Assembly (NCBI RefSeq): GCF_920984665.1
Contig: NZ_CAKLBP010000011.1
Coordinates: forward strand, 1-64,000
Length of the DNA stretch: 64,000 nucleotides
Direction of reading: 5' to 3'
Origin: Pedobacter sp. Leaf170
Lineage (GTDB): Bacteria; Bacteroidota; Bacteroidia; Sphingobacteriales; Sphingobacteriaceae
The notes under the pieces: generated by a model
Told to the model about the DNA's origin: nothing
The model's database searches: none
The model's input: only the letters and a program-made list of their open reading frames with translations
Shown: positions 4,453 through 61,012 of the stretch, piece after piece
How the letters are laid out: every line of letters begins with the position of its first letter
How positions within the stretch are numbered: position 1 is the first letter of the stretch
Position numbers and translations under genes: made by a program

Positions 4453-4672
4453 GATGGAAAATGTAAAGATGGAAGATGGGGAATGGAAGATGTAGAATGG
4501 ATGAGGGAAGATGGGTGATGAAGTTGTGGTTACTCACATTTTCCATTTCTCATTTTACATCGTACATCCCACACGCTACATTTTCCATTTCACATTTTAC
4601 ATCTTCCATTTCACATAATACATCGTCCATCCCACACGCTATATTTTCCAAATCTCATTTTACATCCTACAT
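4453..4672. repeat. Low-complexity, imperfect inverted repeat of GGAAGATG / CATTTTCCAT words
   Basis: The 229-bp gap between the carboxylase and MFS genes is built from repeats. The left part (4453-4520) is purine-rich, with variants of GGAAAATGTAAAGATGGAAG. The right part (4541-4672) is the complementary kind, repeating CATTTTCCATTTCACATTTT and ACATC(G/T)TCCAT. The block CCCACACGCTA(C/T)ATTTTCCA occurs twice, at about 4569 and 4632. The RNA could fold into a long imperfect hairpin. I see no gene in it. Confidence 0.8.
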
Positions 4673-36060: not shown

Positions 36061-37206
36061 TTGCGCCTGAATTGAGGTGCAAAAAAAATCTGCAGGCTTT
36101 ATGAAAATGAATTCAAAAACTTACAGATGATTTATTTGTTTCATGAAGACACGAACCAAGGCTTAATTATCTAAAATGAGATTGCTTCGTTGGCTGAAAA
36201 AGCCTTCTCGCAATGACGAGTAGGAAAGTCAAAATCGTCATTTCGACTGGAGCGCAGCGTAATGGAGAAATCTTTGAACATAGGTTGTCAGTACAAAGAT
36301 TTCTCGGCTGCGCCTGAATTGAGAGGCAAAAAAAATCTGCAGGTTTATGAAAATGAATTCTAAAACTTGCAGATGATTTATTTGCTTCGTAGAAACACGA
36401 ACCAAGGATTAATTATCTAAAATGAGATTGCTTCGTCGGCTGAAAAAGCCTTCTCGCAATGACGAGTAGGAAAGTCAAAATCGTCATTTCGACTGGAGCG
36501 CAGCGTAATGGAGAAATCTTTGAACATAGGTTATTAGTACAAAAATTTCTCGGCTGCACCTGAAATGCCGAACAAAAAAATCTGCAAGCTTTAAAAAAAA
36601 TGAATTCAAAAACTTGCAGATGATTTATTTGCTTCGTGGAGACACGAACCAAGGGTTAATTATCTAGAATGAGATTGCTTCGTCGGCTGAAAAAGCCTTC
36701 TCGCAATGACGGGCAAAAAAGTCAAAATCGTCATTTCGACTGGAGCGCAGCGTAATGGAGAAATCTTTGAACATAGGTTATTAGTACAAAAATTTCTCAG
36801 CTGAACCTGAAATGCCGAACAAAAAAAAATCTGCAAGCTTTATGAAAATGAATTCTAAAACTTGCAGATGATTTATTTGTTTCGTGAAGACAAGAACCAA
36901 GGCTTAATTATCTAAAATGAGATTGCTTCGTTGGCTGAAAAAGCCTCCTCGCAATGACGAGTAGGAAAGTCAAAATCGTCATTTCGACTGGAGCGCAGCG
37001 TAATGGAGAAATCTTTGAACATAGGTTATCAGTACAAAGATTTCTCGGTTGCGCCTGAAATGAGGGGCAAAAAAAATCTGCAAGCTTTATGAAAATGAAT
37101 TCAAAAACTTGCAGATGATTTATTTGCTTTGTAGAAACACGAACCAAGGCTTAATTATTTAAAAAGAGATTGCTTCGTCGGCTGAAAAAGCCTTCTCGCA
37201 ATGACG
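36061..37206. repeat. Tandem array, about 4.6 copies of a 246-248-bp unit
   Basis: The word GAGATTGCTTCGT begins units at 36178, 36424, 36671, 36919 and 37166 (spacing 246, 247, 248, 247). Each unit holds a GAGATTGCTTCGTCGGCTGA hairpin arm with CTTCTCGCAATGACG, the block GTCATTTCGACTGGAGCGCA, a second hairpin built on AAAGATTTCTC, and a pair of AATCTGCA/TGCAGATGA arms. Units differ by scattered substitutions. Two 79-codon frames on the - strand inside it are repeat artefacts. Confidence 0.95.
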
Positions 37207-37254
37207 GATTGGTGTTGGGTTCAGCGATGGAAAGGAAAACCTTAAATCTTTTAC

Positions 37255-37315
37255 CTTCTACCCTATACCCTAAACCCTGCACCTTAAACCCTATACCTTC
37301 TACCCTAAACCCTAA
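37255..37315. repeat. CCCTAAA/CCCTATA simple repeat at the end of gcvP
   Basis: About nine imperfect heptamers of the form CCCTAAA, CCCTATA, CCTTCTA or CCTTAAA follow one another, touching the gcvP stop (TTA at 37312). It resembles eukaryotic telomere repeats but is a short intergenic simple repeat, probably arisen by slippage. Confidence 0.85.
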
Positions 37316-50786: not shown

Positions 50787-52046
50787 TTGTCAGCATTTGT
50801 CAGCATACGCACGCATTGAGATAGTGGATAATTCGAAATAGTGTTAGCAAATGTTAGCATCAAACCACAACATTTAACAACAACCTTGCGCAAGGAAAAG
50901 GCAAAGAAATGTTAACAAAAGCGTTCTACACGCACGTATAGAGATATACGATAATTGCTTTAAGCTTAATTTTACGCGCACACGAATTGACCGTAGAAAA
51001 ATCTTCTATTCATTCTAAGTGGTGTTTTTTGCCTGTATTTTGCCTGTTAACATGAGGTTTTATGAGGTTTTGCAAGATGGTGATAGCAAGAAATAGCACT
51101 CAAATAATTACTGAATTTTAAATTTAACTCACGTTTTCTCACGTTTTTGATTTATCAATGTCAAGTTTTGTACGGTTTTGTTCGGTTCAAAACTCAAAAC
51201 ATCTCAGGTTTTCTCAGGTTTTGATACTTAATCGCAGCGTGTAAAACGAAAGTAGTGTGAAGTTTTGTGAAGTTTTGCTGCCAGGTAAGCACGCTATCAA
51301 TAAGAGGTTTATTCGAAACATGTTAAGTTTTGTTAAGTTTTCGCTTGGATTGAATTTCAACATTTTTCAACATGTACTGCCTTTGTGAGCTAAGTAGTAA
51401 TTCTCACGTTGCACCTCTGATATTCTGGCTTGAATGTCTAGTTTTGTGAGGTTCCTACTACTTGCTTGAATGTCAACATTTGTCAACATTGAACTGTTCA
51501 GACCAAAGCCGGAATTCCGGCTTAGCTTCTGATATCTGGTTTAAATACTAACATTTACTAACATTCATTATGTTACCAGTAAAAGACAGATTTCTACCTT
51601 AGCATTCAAAAGGGATTTCAATGATAGGTTATAAATATCGGTTTCAACCTTAACAAAAGTTAACAACCTACTCAAGGCGATTGCTACTCTGGTCCAATTT
51701 CCGTTCGTGTCTTATCGTATTTAGAATACTGGCTTGAATGTTGGGTTTTGTAGGGTTTTTCTCAAAAAGGTGAGGTTTTGTGAGGTTCTTCAATTTCCGA
51801 TTTTATGTTAGGTTTTGTAAGGTTCTTCTATACACGAGATGACCGTATTAAAATCTTTGATTGCACAAGAAACATCGACATGGTTATCCTTACATGCGCG
51901 AATTGACTATGAAAAAATCTTTAATGATATTACAGAGGGCAATACTGAGAAACTCTATAATAATAAGTGACCGTGTCAAAACCTTCAACACCCCTTTTTT
52001 ATGTGTTGGATTGTGTGGGATTTTCGCCTGTTTCTCGCCTGTTAAG
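50787..52046. repeat. Array of about twenty different 10/11-bp tandem doublets
   Basis: Exact 10-mer doublets: TTGTCAGCAT (50787), ATGAGGTTTT (51052), CTCACGTTTT (51128), CTCAGGTTTT (51203), GTGAAGTTTT (51257), TGTTAAGTTT (51321), TGTCAACATT (51471), TACTAACATT (51546). With one or a few mismatches: 50842 (TGTTAGCA), 51355 (TTTCAACAT), 51436, 51650 (TTAACAA), 51740 (GTTGGGTTTT/GTAGGGTTTT), 51770 (GTGAGGTTTT), 51807, 52003 (GTGTTGGATT/GTGTGGGATT); a triplet at 51160-51189. Two have period 11: TTTTGCCTGT (51027) and CGCCTGTT (52025). Several follow the leader TGGCTTGAATG or a variant (51426, 51463, 51731). The common shape is NTNANNTTTT. Confidence 0.9.
50804..51007 (+). repeat. Compound motifs, group 1: Y-R tract plus TGACCGT-like block
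   Basis: Three units. 50804-50816 is an alternating pyrimidine-purine tract (CATACGCACGCAT) followed by GAGATAGTGGATAATT. 50927-50940 (TACACGCACGTATA) is followed by GAGATATACGATAATT. 50973-50984 (TACGCGCACACG) is followed by AATTGACCGTAGAAAAATCT. The first two share GAGATA-N3-GATAATT; the third is the TGACCGT-N3-AAAATCTT type found again downstream. Confidence 0.75.
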
Positions 52047-52080
52047 TAATTATTTTCCCTCGCGTGACTGACTCCGAAAA
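51829..52080 (+). repeat. Compound motifs, group 2
   Basis: Four units: TATACACG (51829) before ATGACCGTATTAAAATCTTT; TACATGCGCG (51891) before TTGACTATGAAAAAATCTTT; GTGACCGTGTCAAAACCTTC (51967) without a clear alternating tract; and CGCGTG (52061) before ACTGACTCCGAAAACTC. Each block begins with an NTG that would read M-T-V-x-K-S or similar, so short translated leaders are possible, but the doublets next to them break any longer frame. Confidence 0.75.
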
Positions 52081-52151
52081 CTCAATTATTTTATTCTTAA
52101 TAATTTTACGAAAACATCAAAACCTTCTCAATTAAATACAGTTATTGAAAC

Positions 52152-52508: not shown

Positions 52509-54044
52509 GTGAATAAATTTCTAAAAGGAAAATTTGATTTTTCCGGAACATCAATAAACGACAACTTCGAGCTGTTAACTAAAGCTTTGGACGCCTCCAT
52601 ATCAGGTATAATAATTACAGATAACTTGCAGGAAGATAATCCAATTGTTTATTGTAACACTGCATTTGAGACCATAACAGGTTATTCAAGAAATGAAATT
52701 ATTGGTCACAATTGTCGCTTTTTGCAAGCGCAGGATAGAAGTCAAAAGGAACGTGAGATTCTAGCCAAATGTGTCAAAGAAGGCAAAGAATGCAGAGTTG
52801 ATATCCGCAATTACAGAAAAAATGGTGATTTATTTTATAATGAACTATTTATGTCGCCTGTGAAAGATGTAGATGGAAATGTAACACACTTCATAGGTGT
52901 GCAAAATGATGTTACCACTAGAAAAAATGCTGAGCATGATTTACGTCAGCAAAAGTCTTTAATGGAAAAGAAAATAGAGGAACGTACAGCAGATTTGAGG
53001 GATAGCGAATCTTTTCTTTCCAGCATCATCGAGACGGTTAGAGAGGGATTACTTGTTTTAGATCCAAATTTCAATGTTATCAGCGCAAATTATCATTTTT
53101 TAAAGACATTTAAAGTTAGTGCTGAAGAAACTGTCGGAAAAGAACTTTACAAGCTAGGAAATAGCCAATGGGATATCCCGCAGCTTAGGGAACTACTAAT
53201 TAAAATACTACCGACTAACAACCCTGTAGTAGATTTTGAAGTGGAACACGATTTTCCACACATTGGGCGAAAATTGATGCTACTGAATGCGTATAGAATT
53301 GAGCTTGAGGGGCAGTATAAAGACCAAATACTCTTGGCTATTGAAGATATAACAGAACGTAAGGATATAGAGAGAAGAAAAGATGATTTTTTGTCAATTG
53401 CAAGCCATGAACTCAAAACTCCACTAACTACCATAAAGGGGTTTATTCAGGTGCTTCAGAAATCTGTACCTGAGCAGGCAAATGATAAATATCAATCTGT
53501 TCTGGACAAAGTTGCCGTTTATGTTGATAGACTCAACAATCTCATTTCAGAACTATTGGATGTATCAAGGATACAAACTGGCAATATCGAATTACACAAA
53601 GCTCCTTTTAACTTTGATAAACTTATTACAGAGGCGGTTGAGGCAATTCAGGCAACTGCTCACGGTCATAAAATCATATTAAAGGGGTCAACCAATGCAG
53701 AAGTTATTGGTGATGAATCTCACATCATTCAGGTTATAAATAACCTTCTTTCAAACGCTATTAAATATGCTCCGGATTCAAAAATCATTGAAGTTAATAT
53801 TGCCAACATCAGTGAATATGTAAAAGTATCGGTAAAAGATTATGGTGTAGGAATTAATTCAGAAGACACAAAAAAAGTTTTCGAGCGTTTTTACAGGGGA
53901 AATGAAGTGCAAAAGAAATTCCCTGGAATGGGAATTGGACTATACATATGTGACCAAATTATCAAAAACCACCAGGGTACACTCTGGGTTGAAAGTGAAA
54001 AAGGACAAGGTTCTGTTTTCAGTTTCACGTTACCAAAAAATTAG
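52509..54044 (+). CDS. LOV-domain (blue-light) sensor histidine kinase
   Basis: This is a 511-aa soluble kinase starting at GTG. Residues about 25-140 are a LOV domain: GHNCRFLQ at 66-73 holds the flavin-adduct cysteine Cys69, and the FMN-contacting Asn101 (RNYRKNG), Asn111 (YNELFMSPV) and Gln132 (FIGVQNDVT) are all present, so it should be photoactive. A coiled coil (138-165), a second PAS (about 167-285) and a HisKA domain follow, with His300 in IASHELKTPLTTIKG. The HATPase has INNLLSNAIKYAP, VKDYGVGI, FERFYRG and GMGIGLYIC. No membrane helix. The receiver gene follows 9 bp later, a LovK-LovR-like pair. Confidence 0.93.
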   Translation: MNKFLKGKFDFSGTSINDNFELLTKALDASISGIIITDNLQEDNPIVYCNTAFETITGYSRNEIIGHNCRFLQAQDRSQKEREILAKCVKEGKECRVDIRNYRKNGDLFYNELFMSPVKDVDGNVTHFIGVQNDVTTRKNAEHDLRQQKSLMEKKIEERTADLRDSESFLSSIIETVREGLLVLDPNFNVISANYHFLKTFKVSAEETVGKELYKLGNSQWDIPQLRELLIKILPTNNPVVDFEVEHDFPHIGRKLMLLNAYRIELEGQYKDQILLAIEDITERKDIERRKDDFLSIASHELKTPLTTIKGFIQVLQKSVPEQANDKYQSVLDKVAVYVDRLNNLISELLDVSRIQTGNIELHKAPFNFDKLITEAVEAIQATAHGHKIILKGSTNAEVIGDESHIIQVINNLLSNAIKYAPDSKIIEVNIANISEYVKVSVKDYGVGINSEDTKKVFERFYRGNEVQKKFPGMGIGLYICDQIIKNHQGTLWVESEKGQGSVFSFTLPKN

Positions 54045-54053
54045 AACTGTAAT

Positions 54054-54416
54054 ATGAAAGAGAAGAAGATAATAATTTGCGATGACGACCCAGGAATCAT
54101 AGACTTGCTGGAAATTATTTTAGAAGATACAGGACACAATATAATAGCAGAAATGAACAGCATAAATATCCCATCGCTTATCGATAAGGAGATACCAGAC
54201 CTGTTAATCCTTGATTTGTGGATGCCAGTCGTTTCGGGAGATCAACTCCTCAAAATGATCCGTAAACATCCAAAGCTAAGCGGCATTCCGGTTATAATTA
54301 TATCAGCGAGTAGAGATGGTGAAGAAATTGCTAACCAAGCAGGTGCATCGACTTTTCTATCTAAACCTTTTGATATCGATAAACTAATAGCGACAGTTGA
54401 AGCACATTTAAATTAA
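54054..54416 (+). CDS. Single-domain response regulator
   Basis: This 120-aa receiver has the acidic pocket Asp10-Asp12 (ICDDDPG), phosphoacceptor Asp54 (LILDLWMPV), the switch residue in IIISASRDGEE and Lys104 (LSKPFD). There is no output domain, so it acts by protein contact or as a phosphate sink, like Caulobacter LovR or CheY. It is the certain partner of the LOV kinase by operon position. Confidence 0.92.
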   Translation: MKEKKIIICDDDPGIIDLLEIILEDTGHNIIAEMNSINIPSLIDKEIPDLLILDLWMPVVSGDQLLKMIRKHPKLSGIPVIIISASRDGEEIANQAGASTFLSKPFDIDKLIATVEAHLN

Positions 54417-54479: not shown

Positions 54480-54630
54480 ACATGTGTAATGACCGTGAAA
54501 AAATCTTCACGCACGCGTAGTGACCTCCGAAAAATCATTGCAAGACCGCAGCAAGGTTGCGCCTCATGGAGAGTTGACTATCCTTCTATGACCGTCAAAA
54601 AATCTCGCTTGCCTCGCGCGCGCGCGCGTA
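54480..54630 (+). repeat. Compound motifs, group 3, beyond the LOV module
   Basis: Units: ACATGTGTA (54480) then ATGACCGTGAAAAAATCTTC (54489); CACGCACGCGTA (54508) then GTGACCTCCGAAAAATCATT (54520); ATGACCGTCAAAAAATCTCG (54589) followed by (CG)7 at 54615-54628, an extreme alternating tract in an AT-rich genome. No 10-bp doublets are seen here. With groups 1 and 2 these flank the 2.3-kb LOV module on both sides. A 61-codon frame across them (54489-54674) is judged an artefact. Confidence 0.75.
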
Positions 54631-55905: not shown

Positions 55906-57033
55906 TTAGTGTTTTAAAAGGTTAAATACTTGGTTTGCGTAACCATCCATTATGATATCGTCCTTAACTTCGGTTATGTACGCCTCATGTATTGCCAGTG
56001 TGGCGTGACCGATCAGGTCTTTGGTAATTGTGGTATTTTGTATTGTTTGGTTAGCCAGGACCGCGAAGCTATGCCGGGCAATATGGCTGGTTAGGTTTTT
56101 ATCAATCCCCACTTGCTTTGCAATACGCTTTAGTCTCGATGTGATTATGGCCACTGCACGATTTGCAGCTTTATGTTTTGCGAAAGGATCTGCTGACTCC
56201 TTCACTTTCAATAAGCTGAAAATATAACCATCGCGGCTTTTACCTCGCCACCTGTCAATAATAATTTGCAGCTCAGGTATGATGGCACTGCTATGCTGCT
56301 TGCCTGTTTTAGATTCAACATAAGTTATCCTTGCTTCTTTAACATTATCAGCAGTGAGCCGCAGCAAATCTCCAATTCGTAGGCCCCGCAGATACACACA
56401 CGCCATAAACATATCTCTTACCTCTGCAAGCTTTGGAGGCAAATCAGCTTCCATGAGCAACCGCAGCTCATTAACATTAAGCTTGGCTTTAATCGATTGC
56501 TCCCGCTTGAAATTAATATCAATTAGCGGATTTTCTTTGACAAGCTTAGCTTTGATTGCTTTACGGAACAAAGTGCTTAAAACAGTCATTTTTGCCTTAA
56601 TCGTATTTGCACAGTTTTTAAGATCGTTCCGGAGATATGCAGCAAACTTGTAAATAAAGCTTTCATCAATATCCTCAAAATCTACATCCTTTTTAAAAGC
56701 TATGATCTGATTTAATAATGCTTGATTTATATGATATCTCCCTACCTGTTGCCTTAGCCTGTAGTTTTCGTTTTCCATTTCAAAAAAGCTGCGGAAAGTG
56801 TAGATTTTCTCAAGACCATAATTCTTAAGCGCATTCTCAATCAGGTTGTTTATCCTGGGGGCCTGCAGGTGCCTTGGCGAAACTCTCAGTTTGCTAATTA
56901 ACCAATCCTCTGTTTTACACCTGGCAATCACTTTACGAATGGCCTTGCCTTTCTTAACAACCTGCAGCATGATGGGGTGTGTTCCATCGCTGTAAGTTTT
57001 GTGTTTATAAAGTATGATTTTAGGGTATGGCAT
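55906..57033 (-). CDS. Tyrosine recombinase (integrase)
   Basis: This 375-aa site-specific integrase is of the Bacteroidota phage/ICE type. The N-terminal 80 residues include the arm-binding MPYPKIILYKHKTYSDGTHP segment; about 85-170 form the SAM-like core-binding domain. Catalytic residues: Arg in LRGLRIGDLLRLT, Lys in SKTGKQHS, the H-x-x-R box in SHIARHSF, His in LIGHATLAIHEAY, and nucleophile Tyr352. It is full length and apparently active. No tRNA gene or obvious attachment site is adjacent. Confidence 0.93.
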   Translation of the reverse strand: MPYPKIILYKHKTYSDGTHPIMLQVVKKGKAIRKVIARCKTEDWLISKLRVSPRHLQAPRINNLIENALKNYGLEKIYTFRSFFEMENENYRLRQQVGRYHINQALLNQIIAFKKDVDFEDIDESFIYKFAAYLRNDLKNCANTIKAKMTVLSTLFRKAIKAKLVKENPLIDINFKREQSIKAKLNVNELRLLMEADLPPKLAEVRDMFMACVYLRGLRIGDLLRLTADNVKEARITYVESKTGKQHSSAIIPELQIIIDRWRGKSRDGYIFSLLKVKESADPFAKHKAANRAVAIITSRLKRIAKQVGIDKNLTSHIARHSFAVLANQTIQNTTITKDLIGHATLAIHEAYITEVKDDIIMDGYANQVFNLLKH

Positions 57034-59448: not shown

Positions 59449-59917
59449 GCACTATTACCACACACTTAATACAAAATAATGAGTAAGCATGATTTAGCAC
59501 TAGCAGCGAGATTAAAGCAATTTAGGAAGTTGTTTGTGGACAACCATATGGACATAGCTGCTCCTCTATTAGAAATATCTAGAGGTAAGCTCGGTAATAT
59601 GGAATCTGGAGAGACTGCCGTTGATGTAAAAGTGATAAATTTACTTCAAAAGAAGTATGGTCTAAACAGAGATTGGTTGATGGATGGCAAAGGTAATATG
59701 CGGTCAAACGATACCAGAAAAAAGACCGGATTAATGGGAACCATTGAAATGGGCGACAGGATTGATAAACTCACGACAGAAATGCTAATTCTTACCAAGA
59801 ATCTTAATAATGCCTGGCAAATTATTGAGCGCCATGAAAAGGAGATTGACAGACAAGTAAAAGAAATTGAAAAGCTCAAAGATGGGAGCAGATGATATTT
59901 ATAGCAGGGAGCCTGAG
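59407..59917 (+). repeat. 30-bp direct repeats flanking the XRE gene
   Basis: The block GCGGATGATATTTATAGTAG + GGAGCCAGAAG (59407-59437) recurs with few changes at 59888-59917 (GCAGATGATATTTATAGCAG + GGAGCCTGAG). In the frame of the 79-aa gene both read DDIYSREPE; the second copy has its own TAA (about 59925). So the second copy is an orphan C-terminus of the first gene. Confidence 0.85.
59479..59895 (+). CDS. XRE-family transcriptional regulator
   Basis: This 138-aa protein has an N-terminal helix-turn-helix (about 8-70: MDIAAPLLEISRGKLGNMES, then the family ending YGLNRDWLMDGKGNM) and a C-terminal coiled coil (about 88-136, IDKLTTEMLILTKNLNNAWQ and ERHEKEIDRQVKEIEKLKDG). There is no peptidase domain, so it is not a LexA-cleavable CI. 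It probably represses the leftward element genes through the repeated dyads at 59109-59182. Confidence 0.85.
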   Translation: MSKHDLALAARLKQFRKLFVDNHMDIAAPLLEISRGKLGNMESGETAVDVKVINLLQKKYGLNRDWLMDGKGNMRSNDTRKKTGLMGTIEMGDRIDKLTTEMLILTKNLNNAWQIIERHEKEIDRQVKEIEKLKDGSR

Positions 59918-59932
59918 GGGGAATAATATATC

Positions 59933-61012
59933 ATGAATAGACTCGTAATTGTAGGAAACGGTTTTGACCTCGCTCATGGACTTAAAACGAGCTATTGCGA
60001 TTTCCTCACCAATTATCTCATTAGTGTAATCGATTCATTTAACACCAAATTCTATCATGGCGATGAGTTGATTGAGATAAAAAATACATATCATGGAACT
60101 AGAGAATTCAACACAGAATGGGACAAAAGCAAAGTTTTCGAGATATTAAAAGAATTACAGAGCAATCAATATACCAGTGTAGTGTTTAAATCAAGTCTAT
60201 TGAAGGATAGCTTGCAAAAAGCTCATAATTTAAAATGGGTTGATTTAGAAAATGATTATTATGAGGAATTATTAAGGCTGTTGCAAACTAAACCTGCAAA
60301 TGTCGATTTAATTCAGAAGCTGAATATTCAGTTTGATTTTCTTAAAAAAAAATTGGAGAATTATTTAACCAGTCAAATCGTTGATCTCCAACCGAGTGAA
60401 GAGATTCAAAGACTATTTCATGGTCCGATCAGAACAAGGAGTATGAATGAACCCCAAATGAATCTTCCAAATAACATTATGTTTTTGAATTTTAATTATA
60501 CAAAAACATTAAACAACTACGAAACTTACGAATATCCGGGATTGACCCATAGAAGAGGTTATGCTACTAATATATCCATTAATCAAATCCATGGAGAATT
60601 GAAATCAAAAGAGAATCCTATAATCTTTGGTTTTGGTGACGAATATGACGAGGAGTATGTCAAGTTTGAAAGCCTGAAAACCAATACGGTATTTCAGCAC
60701 ATAAAATCATTCGCATATTTTCAAACTACTAATTACACAAGGTTAATGAGTTTCCTAGATATGGATTCGTTTGAGGTATACATTGTTGGACATTCGTGTG
60801 GGTTATCAGACAGAACAATGTTCAGAGAAGTTTTTGGACACAAGAATTGTGGGCTTATTTGGAATTTTTATTATCAAAGGCCTGATGGAACTGATGATTT
60901 TTTAGACAAGAATTATGAACTCGCTCGCCATTTTACAAATAAGGGAGTGATGCGAAAAAAAATAGTTGCTAAACCGTTTACCTCGCCTTTCCCGCAATTT
61001 CTACTAAAGTAA
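59933..61012 (+). CDS. AbiH-family abortive-infection protein
   Basis: This is a 359-aa protein with the AbiH start MNRLVIVGNGFDLAHGLKTS and, later, NIMFLNFNYTKTLNNYE, NQIHGELKSKENPIIFGFGD and VEVYIVGHSCG-like IVGHSCGLSDRTMFREVF, all hallmarks of the family first described as a lactococcal phage-resistance protein. The mode of action is not established; the N-terminus looks like a nucleotide-binding strand-loop. As cargo directly after the regulator genes it suggests a phage-defence role for the element. Confidence 0.9.
   Translation: MNRLVIVGNGFDLAHGLKTSYCDFLTNYLISVIDSFNTKFYHGDELIEIKNTYHGTREFNTEWDKSKVFEILKELQSNQYTSVVFKSSLLKDSLQKAHNLKWVDLENDYYEELLRLLQTKPANVDLIQKLNIQFDFLKKKLENYLTSQIVDLQPSEEIQRLFHGPIRTRSMNEPQMNLPNNIMFLNFNYTKTLNNYETYEYPGLTHRRGYATNISINQIHGELKSKENPIIFGFGDEYDEEYVKFESLKTNTVFQHIKSFAYFQTTNYTRLMSFLDMDSFEVYIVGHSCGLSDRTMFREVFGHKNCGLIWNFYYQRPDGTDDFLDKNYELARHFTNKGVMRKKIVAKPFTSPFPQFLLK

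Follow-up and report, generated by a model that had tools for sequence, protein, structure and literature searches.

The array of short repeats and its genomic surroundings

Positions 50787-52046 of the window (by which we mean the whole 64-kb stretch of DNA analysed) contain no open reading frame of 90 aa or more, the largest encoding 62 aa (51861-52049), and the description of the stretch as gene-free in an earlier, sequence-only reading therefore holds. Around 25 short elements in all occupy this stretch. Elements of the first kind, termed class A here, carry the consensus TGTNANNTTT twice at a distance of 10 bp; the array contains 16 of them, 15 in the same orientation, and the same criterion returns seven in the remaining 62.3 kb of the window. 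The second kind, class B (TGACCGTNNNAAAATC or CGCGTGACTGAC..GAAAACTC), lies between 50988 and 52083 and again at 54490-54604, with four exact matches to TGACCGTNNNAAAATC, at 50988, 51840, 54490 and 54589. The elements and neighbouring genes, with the closest small-terminase (terS) sites for those elements that have one, are as follows.

50787-50806, plus strand: class-A doublet TTGTCAGCAT x2, period 10, exact pair
50842-50860, plus strand: class-A doublet TGTTAGCAAA/TGTTAGCAT; 18/21 to the G122 terS site (L225; codons R-L-L-A-N-V-S-I), core exact, matched stretch 50839-50859; reversed-array control 13
50988-51005, plus strand: class-B element TGACCGTAGAAAAATCTT, motif match
51023-51047, plus strand: period-11 doublet TTTTGCCTGTA, tandem pair
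51052-51071, plus strand: class-A doublet ATGAGGTTTT x2, tandem pair
51128-51147, plus strand: class-A doublet CTCACGTTTT x2, tandem pair
51159-51187, plus strand: class-A near doublet (TGTCAAGTTTTGTACGGTTTTGTTCGGTT), tandem pair
51202-51222, plus strand: class-A doublet TCTCAGGTTT x2; 21/21 to the G166 terS site (L227; codons E-N-L-R-K-P-E-I on the opposite strand); reversed-array control 14
51256-51276, plus strand: class-A doublet TGTGAAGTTT x2, tandem pair
51321-51341, plus strand: class-A doublet TGTTAAGTTT x2, tandem pair
51355-51373, plus strand: class-A doublet TTTCAACATT; 18/21 to the G075 terS site (L228; codons R-L-L-K-N-V-E-I on the opposite strand), core exact; reversed-array control 15
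51435-51455, plus strand: class-A near doublet TGTCTAGTTTTGTGAGGTT; 19/21 to a viral terS site (L230)
51471-51490, plus strand: class-A doublet TGTCAACATT x2, tandem pair
51546-51565, plus strand: class-A doublet TACTAACATT x2, tandem pair
51647-51665, minus strand: class-A element in the minority orientation (TGTTAACTTTTGTTAAGGT), by the consensus criterion
51739-51759, plus strand: class-A near doublet TGTTGGGTTTTGTAGGGTTT, tandem pair and consensus criterion
51769-51789, plus strand: class-A doublet GGTGAGGTTTTGTGAGGTT, by the consensus criterion
51806-51826, plus strand: class-A imperfect doublet; 20/21 to the equally imperfect G026 terS site (L226; codons E-N-L-T-K-P-N-I on the opposite strand); reversed-array control 16
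51840-51985, plus strand: three class-B elements (51840, 51904, 51968), motif matches
52002-52022, plus strand: class-A near doublet TGTTGGATTGTGTGGGATT, tandem pair and consensus criterion
52021-52045, plus strand: period-11 doublet TCGCCTGTTTC, tandem pair
52058-52083, plus strand: class-B element CCTCGCGTGACTGACTCCGAAAACTC; 24/26 to the G015 terS gene (phrog_309; codons E-F-S-V-S-V-T-R, right after the helix-turn-helix; BLAST 35 bp, 89%); shuffled maximum 17
52509-54416, plus strand: PAS histidine kinase and receiver-domain protein, between the two element blocks; may belong to the element or be an insertion
54490-54604, plus strand: second class-B block, three elements, motif matches
55906-57033, minus strand: tyrosine integrase (Phage_int_SAM_5 and Phage_integrase, with Arm-DNA-bind_5 just below cut-off), from the domain scan
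59479-61012, plus strand: phage-type repressor and AbiH abortive-infection gene, from the domain scan

The sequence-only reading had reported tandem doublets with a period of mostly 10 bp and, in two cases, 11 bp, and we find these at counts far above those in 1000 dinucleotide-preserving shuffles of 50787-52046. Exact period-10 pairs (9/9 bases) number nine, against a mean of 0.01 and a maximum of 1 in the shuffles, and dinucleotide composition consequently does not reproduce the doublets; 14 pairs are found at 9/10 bases (0.05 in shuffles), 17 at 8/10 bases (0.49), and two at period 11 and 9/9 bases (0.01), while periods 6-9 and 12-21 yield no 9/9 pair in the array stretch. All nine of the exact period-10 pairs present in the whole window fall between 50787 and 52046. 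The feature is larger than the sequence-only reading had it, since the class-B elements at 54490-54604 lie beyond the coordinates given there.

The array is a single occurrence in its 4.47-Mb genome: the array pattern has five exact matches, all of them within the array, and with up to one mismatch it has 31, eight in the array and 23 elsewhere (the reversed pattern gives 24). No similar array was detected in the other 143 genomes of the genus by a pattern that detects two close class-A doublets only. Satellite DNA, iterons and CRISPR arrays all share one repeat across the array, and the present stretch resembles them in containing many short repeats in a gene-free region. However, no single repeat runs throughout it; each pair is a different word, and agreement is confined to the two halves of each.

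A phage-type integrase and a repressor, as expected of a phage satellite, are both present in the window. Among 20 window ORFs scanned between 45.9 and 63.3 kb there is no primase or helicase, no exact repeat of at least 14 bp that might represent an att repeat is shared by the 47-56 kb and 57-75 kb segments of the contig, no tRNA is found in the window or in the 11 kb beyond it, and a scan for RNA families gave one match, below the gathering score of that family. Further along the contig, which ends at 75,194, a tape-measure gene occupies about 67.7-72 kb (L339:3691-7980), and a 302-aa protein beside it carries a weak ‘terminase large subunit’ label. Given tail genes on the same contig and no primase-helicase in the scanned ORFs, the carrier may be a prophage as well as a satellite. 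Relatives of the integrase occur in all 145 genus genomes searched; a search of IMG/VR gave none, and 29 phage records yield relatives at less than 60% identity only.

Recombination half-sites, one of three functions that the sequence-only reading had offered for the doublets, are not supported, nor are arm or core sites of the integrase: 14-16 kb stretches with three of its closest relatives in the genus (L340, L342 and L343) contain no such array, and the matches that we find are to terS genes. The L342 stretch contains no tandem pair at all. In L340 and in L343 a single period-11 pair lies where the integrase gene begins (L340 2006, L343 7804; GTGTAAG words), and these pairs are possible arm or core sites; L343 has one further period-10 pair about 7 kb from the integrase. 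Elsewhere in the window, a 247-bp unit is repeated in tandem 4.6 times (91% matches) at 36080-37206, and tracts with periods that are multiples of 7 lie at 4453-4666 and 37239-37315.

Correspondence with small-terminase genes

Small-terminase genes of the Terminase_2 type were found in just four of the 144 genus genomes searched, and the genome from which the window derives has none. In each of these four genes (4/4), the site just after the helix-turn-helix codons matches a different one of the 16 class-A elements, with a mean of 19.25/21 versus 14.5 for the reversed array and 13.25 for the shuffled array (for individual sites, single reversed-array controls of 13-16 and shuffle means of 12.9-13.6). 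Against six other arrays the same four sites reach 16.0-17.75. In the second terS family, with three genes in the genus, G015 matches at 24/26 and G059 at 20/26 (control 18), while G068 gives no match. Five elements of the array, four of class A and one of class B, therefore correspond to terS genes of the genus. For the remaining 12 class-A elements no source was found in the 144 genus genomes, and some of these reach 19/21 to terS sites of more distant phages. Searches of IMG/VR with one period-11 word and one class-B word gave one and five matches, respectively, none of them in a readable terS frame. For the family of Lentilactobacillus, host to another array, terS sites score 16.16 to the Lentilactobacillus array and 16.52 to the present one, and since this test failed, host matching rests on the four sites here.

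Two alternative sources of such elements can be weighed at this point. That all five traced elements derive from terS, with a phage-type integrase nearby, would be expected if the array were a collection of remnants of numerous degraded terS genes or prophage termini, accumulated through successive insertions into the same locus. However, the matches cover about 18-35 bp, with flanks that are unrelated by eye and both halves intact, and similar arrays, again with a predominant orientation, are present in unrelated genomes, such that we consider this origin highly improbable. OmpR/PhoB-type transcription factors likewise recognise direct repeats spaced by 10-11 bp, and an array of their operators would be similar in spacing and shape; yet the words here differ by site and match the terS genes of single phages, and the array is unique in its genome, which leaves an operator array scarcely credible.

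The repeat within terS genes was characterised on a wider set of sequences. The pattern GTNAGGTTTTGTNAGGTTTT has at least 120 matches in IMG/VR, and 74 of the 80 loci fetched encode N-L-T-K-P in frame on the other strand within an open frame, mostly preceded by E; the four loci scanned are Pfam Terminase_2 (terminase small subunit). Among the other six, the contig end cuts the gene in L092, where the flank is terS-like, and L087, L090, L094, L121 and L143 have no such frame. Of 54 distinct genes, 39 have the same letter at the wobble position of the Leu codon and, ten bases further, at the first position of a codon (AA 12, CC 9, GG 14, TT 4), where about 15 are expected from column counts.

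For further comparisons, terS genes were chosen without reference to DNA, either by protein patterns (the best 80 of 544 viral loci) or by the Pfam profile, the latter set drawn from the family of the host (28 of 399 genomes, up to 30 loci). Across 59 distinct viral genes, half-sites compared at period 10 have a mean identity of 0.68, versus 0.17-0.35 at periods 6-9 and 11-15, and the corresponding values are 0.61 versus at most 0.39 elsewhere in 26 genes of the host family, and 0.81 versus at most 0.42 elsewhere in 31 matches from the Lentilactobacillus family. Under a null in which the same proteins are encoded by codons drawn from the flanks, agreement exceeds expectation both in viral genes (6.81/10 observed, 4.07 expected, z 17.8) and in 25 family genes (6.12/10 observed, 4.16 expected, z 7.5), one of the 26 having been dropped for a short window and identical protein windows having been merged. 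Re-dealing the second halves among genes gives 5.34 for the viral set (z 10.1) and 4.82 for the family set (z 5.0), both below the observed values. Thinning, which controls sequence relatedness only in part, leaves 18 viral genes at 70% protein identity (5.50, versus 3.33 with synonymous codons and 3.94 re-dealt), 13 family genes at 70% (5.31, versus 3.74 and 3.97) and, at 60%, 15 genes in all (4.53, versus 3.01, z 5.3, and 3.67, z 2.6). The single wobble test is weak in the family set (12/25), whereas the whole-site tests are not, and a narrower protein expression, since superseded by the profile search, recovered 9 of 80 genes with no wobble signal (2/9). The repeat is lacking in five Terminase_2 genes of the neighbouring genus g37 (PKI type; 1-3/10) and in two short or broken Terminase_2 genes of g27 (3/10).

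These analyses show that the terS site is conserved as DNA, beyond protein and codon constraint. A process that copies a 10-nt word once, another of the functions put forward in the sequence-only reading, is consequently not needed, because the halves within terS genes are kept alike at the DNA level and the element at 51806 mirrors an equally imperfect terS pair.

Conservation of this sort marks a cis-acting site but not its reader, and the terS repeat could instead serve another role, for example as a regulatory site or as the target of another nuclease, with the array copies serving that role too. Such a role would agree with the SF6 DNA-binding domain, which in one study bound pac DNA in vitro without sequence preference (PMC4737164), a result that also counts against a reading of the sites as packaging sites. 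Against it, two accounts place pac of P22 inside the terS gene (PMC9611059) and have pac of SPP1 overlap the sequence of gene 1 that encodes the DNA-binding domain, with gp1 binding pacL and pacR and gp2 cutting in pacC between them (PMC6316719). The TerS of SF6, a relative of SPP1, matches the TerS profile used here at 1.2e-38, and in the SPP1-like phage 049ML001 there is no clear doublet, the best period-10 pair in or near the gene reaching 7/10. Among bIL310, bIL311 and bIL312 of Lactococcus lactis, which we take to be known satellites, bIL311 and bIL312 show no array; the small element bIL310 has a terS gene of its own with a doublet inside it, plus two other pairs, which is a further point against a role other than terminase binding. 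We regard such a role as very unlikely.

Similar arrays in other genomes and their carriers

The pattern of two close doublets returned 13 stretches in IMG/VR, part of which are simple tandem runs or single pairs, and 59 stretches in a set of 84,980 species, each represented by a single genome. Of the 59, 19 hold at least four distinct doublets, and after exclusion of L345, L359, L369, L375 and L399 as near-identical tandem runs, 14 are arrays of at least four non-identical doublets. These derive from Lentilactobacillus kribbianus, Anaerococcus senegalensis, Fructobacillus tropaeoli (two contigs) and Lactococcus raffinolactis, from Larkinella sp. C7, L. rosea and Acinetobacter bouvetii, and from MAGs of Erysipelotrichaceae, Cytophagales, Runella, Bacteroidales, Bacilli and Patescibacteria. 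The arrays thus extend over Bacteroidota, Bacillota, Acinetobacter and one Patescibacteria MAG. In Larkinella C7 the layout is like that of the present array, with class-A doublets followed by GC-rich class-B elements, one of which is nearly the same class-B word as that at 52058.

Across 20 array regions, the density of tandem pairs within arrays is 5.97 per kb at period 10 and 1.46 at period 11, and does not exceed 0.25 at any other period (the regions having been chosen through period 10 and the array limits set through periods 10 and 11), and outside the arrays of the same regions it is 0.04-0.11 per kb. The weak arrays L416-L418, L422 and L423, with two or three doublets, are included in the counts of orientation, period and covariation. 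The claim that the two halves of a pair vary together is confirmed in this array and the 20 others, where 240 of 291 cells at three variable positions agree versus 132.4 expected with re-dealt second halves, the elements having been picked by conserved positions only and the 20 loci and their limits pre-chosen for containing doublets. In orientation, 112 elements of the 20 arrays follow the majority and 10 the minority, as compared to 15 and 1 here, although the search pattern itself forces about two same-orientation elements per array in most arrays.

Genes near the arrays were characterised from 39 chosen ORFs and 10 further ones, and absences mean little because the scans covered chosen ORFs. 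Tyrosine integrases lie near L405, L411, L412 and L417, and genes for Prim-Pol, D5 and VapE-type primase-helicases near L404, L412, L416, L417 and L421, such that L412 and L417 have both, the combination expected of satellites. Among scanned ORFs, primase-helicase alone was found at L404, L406, L416 and L421, and integrase alone at L405 and L411; a DNA primase and a head-scaffolding protein are encoded near L406, DnaB near L414, and a small terminase, a tape-measure gene and DnaB at the locus of the L. rosea array. Neither integrase nor primase-helicase appeared in the one or two ORFs scanned at each of L408, L409, L410, L413 and L415, and no integrase among 10 more ORFs (two beside the L. rosea array, eight in the outer flanks L469 and L470). 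The phrog_2 large terminase was detected in 0 of 6 viral array records, phrog_2 being one family and the records possibly fragments.

Several features of these loci were noted in passing. ORFs of L201 and L143 were read as integrases by eye. A tape-measure (tail) gene occurs near several arrays (L406, L407, L414 and on the present contig), and carriers of this kind may be satellites that supply a tail ruler of their own; in L414 a small terminase is followed by two proteins of about 240 aa and then by a 1769-aa tape measure, and none of the intervening ORFs is large enough to encode a large terminase. The array of the Patescibacteria MAG (L415, 7914-10358) adjoins a C5 methylase and a BpuJI-like restriction enzyme, an association that could be a binning error.

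A proposed library of packaging sites for many helper phages

We propose that the stretch is a library of pac-like sites from many phages, borne on an integrative element that is packaged by many helpers and is either a phage satellite or derived from a prophage and satellite-like in behaviour, a reading to which we assign a probability of roughly 0.68. On this proposal, each doublet would be a copy of the short stretch following the helix-turn-helix codons in the small-terminase gene of one phage, and this would be where the packaging machinery of the phage recognises its own genome, as a pac site comparable to pacR of SPP1. The subunits of small terminases contain helix-turn-helix domains and assemble into rings. 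Two equal half-sites at a spacing of 10 bp, one helical turn, would sit on one face of the DNA, and could be read side by side by two neighbouring domains of the ring. When a matching phage grows in the cell, its terminase would start packaging at the matching element, and the carrier would leave in particles of that phage. The halves of one site would be alike because one protein reads both, words would differ between sites because the terminase of each phage reads its own, and the shared orientation may be explained by headful packaging, which runs one way from pac. The sequence data themselves show the correspondence of five elements with terS genes of the genus, the conservation of the terS repeat as DNA, the recurrence of such arrays and their shared orientation; we infer a phage source for the untraced elements, binding by terminase, packaging, and a satellite lifestyle of the copy in the window. 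Judged from sequence comparison, the array suggests that mobile DNA may be able to ride in the particles of many phages.

The first of the three functions suggested in the sequence-only reading, binding sites one helical turn apart for proteins of differing specificities, fits best and is partly supported, since the traced sites match terS genes of different phages and small terminases have the ring structure described above.

The same terS matches could arise if the array were a decoy that sequesters or diverts the small terminases of infecting phages and thereby keeps those phages from being packaged, as a defence of the carrier or its host, the carrier itself being unpackaged. Defence-type genes near some arrays, including AbiH here, a Cap4 nuclease at L414 and the restriction-modification pair at L415, are in keeping with this. 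However, a sponge would work with elements in any direction, whereas 112 of 122 elements have the majority orientation (with about two per array forced by the pattern), and one or few copies per word would seem too few to titrate a protein that meets many phage genomes. We therefore consider a decoy unlikely.

Several known systems share features with the proposed packaging library. The pac sites of SPP1 and SF6 are alike in having a Terminase_2 terminase, direct repeats and a pac that overlaps the codons of the terS DNA-binding domain (PMC6316719, PMC4737164). They differ in that each is a single site belonging to one phage and built of three box types (pacL, pacC and pacR), whereas about 25 putative sites, drawn from many phages and unaccompanied by the genes, make up the present array. 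Packaging of satellites relies on pac or cos systems, and islands may carry a TerS specific for the island pac site (PMC10803314, PMC8125051); satellites are further described as carrying an integrase, regulators and replication functions without virion genes (PMC13376191, PMC10803314). Phage-inducible chromosomal islands and satellites accordingly resemble the loci with an integrase, primase-helicase or repressor beside the array, but are not known to have more than one packaging site or one TerS. In generalized transduction, host or plasmid DNA resembling pac starts packaging at pseudo-pac sites, which are single pac homologues met at low frequency rather than an ordered array of different words (PMC8494744).

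Among the matches listed for open-licence PubMed Central literature, by title and start of abstract, there is no array of packaging sites from several phages. As far as we have seen, a packaging array for many helpers has not been described before, whereas satellites that pirate packaging by means of one site or one TerS are known. Whether polyvalent packaging libraries are a widespread, previously unrecognised part of mobile elements, in at least three bacterial phyla, that collects and renews the words of helper phages is a broader proposition, for and against which we see about equal odds. If true, one element could be carried by dozens of unrelated helper phages, arrays would be readable records of the phages of a host, and together they would form a code book linking every small terminase to the DNA word that it reads. 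The way in which small terminases locate the genome of their own phage is debated and unsettled (PMC9611059), and a 10-bp tandem site in which the word varies by phage and the halves are alike would offer a direct way to read the recognition code. Should packaging indeed start at the arrays, one element could spread via many phages, which would also alter our understanding of satellite helper range, and helper phages would be predictable from sequence.

A third recurrent motif, resembling TTTTAGGGNCTCCGAAATNTC or GTGTCCGATATGTCCG, was seen by eye in L201, L143, L215, L404 and L407, taking the form ACACGATANNGCGC in L201 and L143, and perhaps represents sites of further terminase families.
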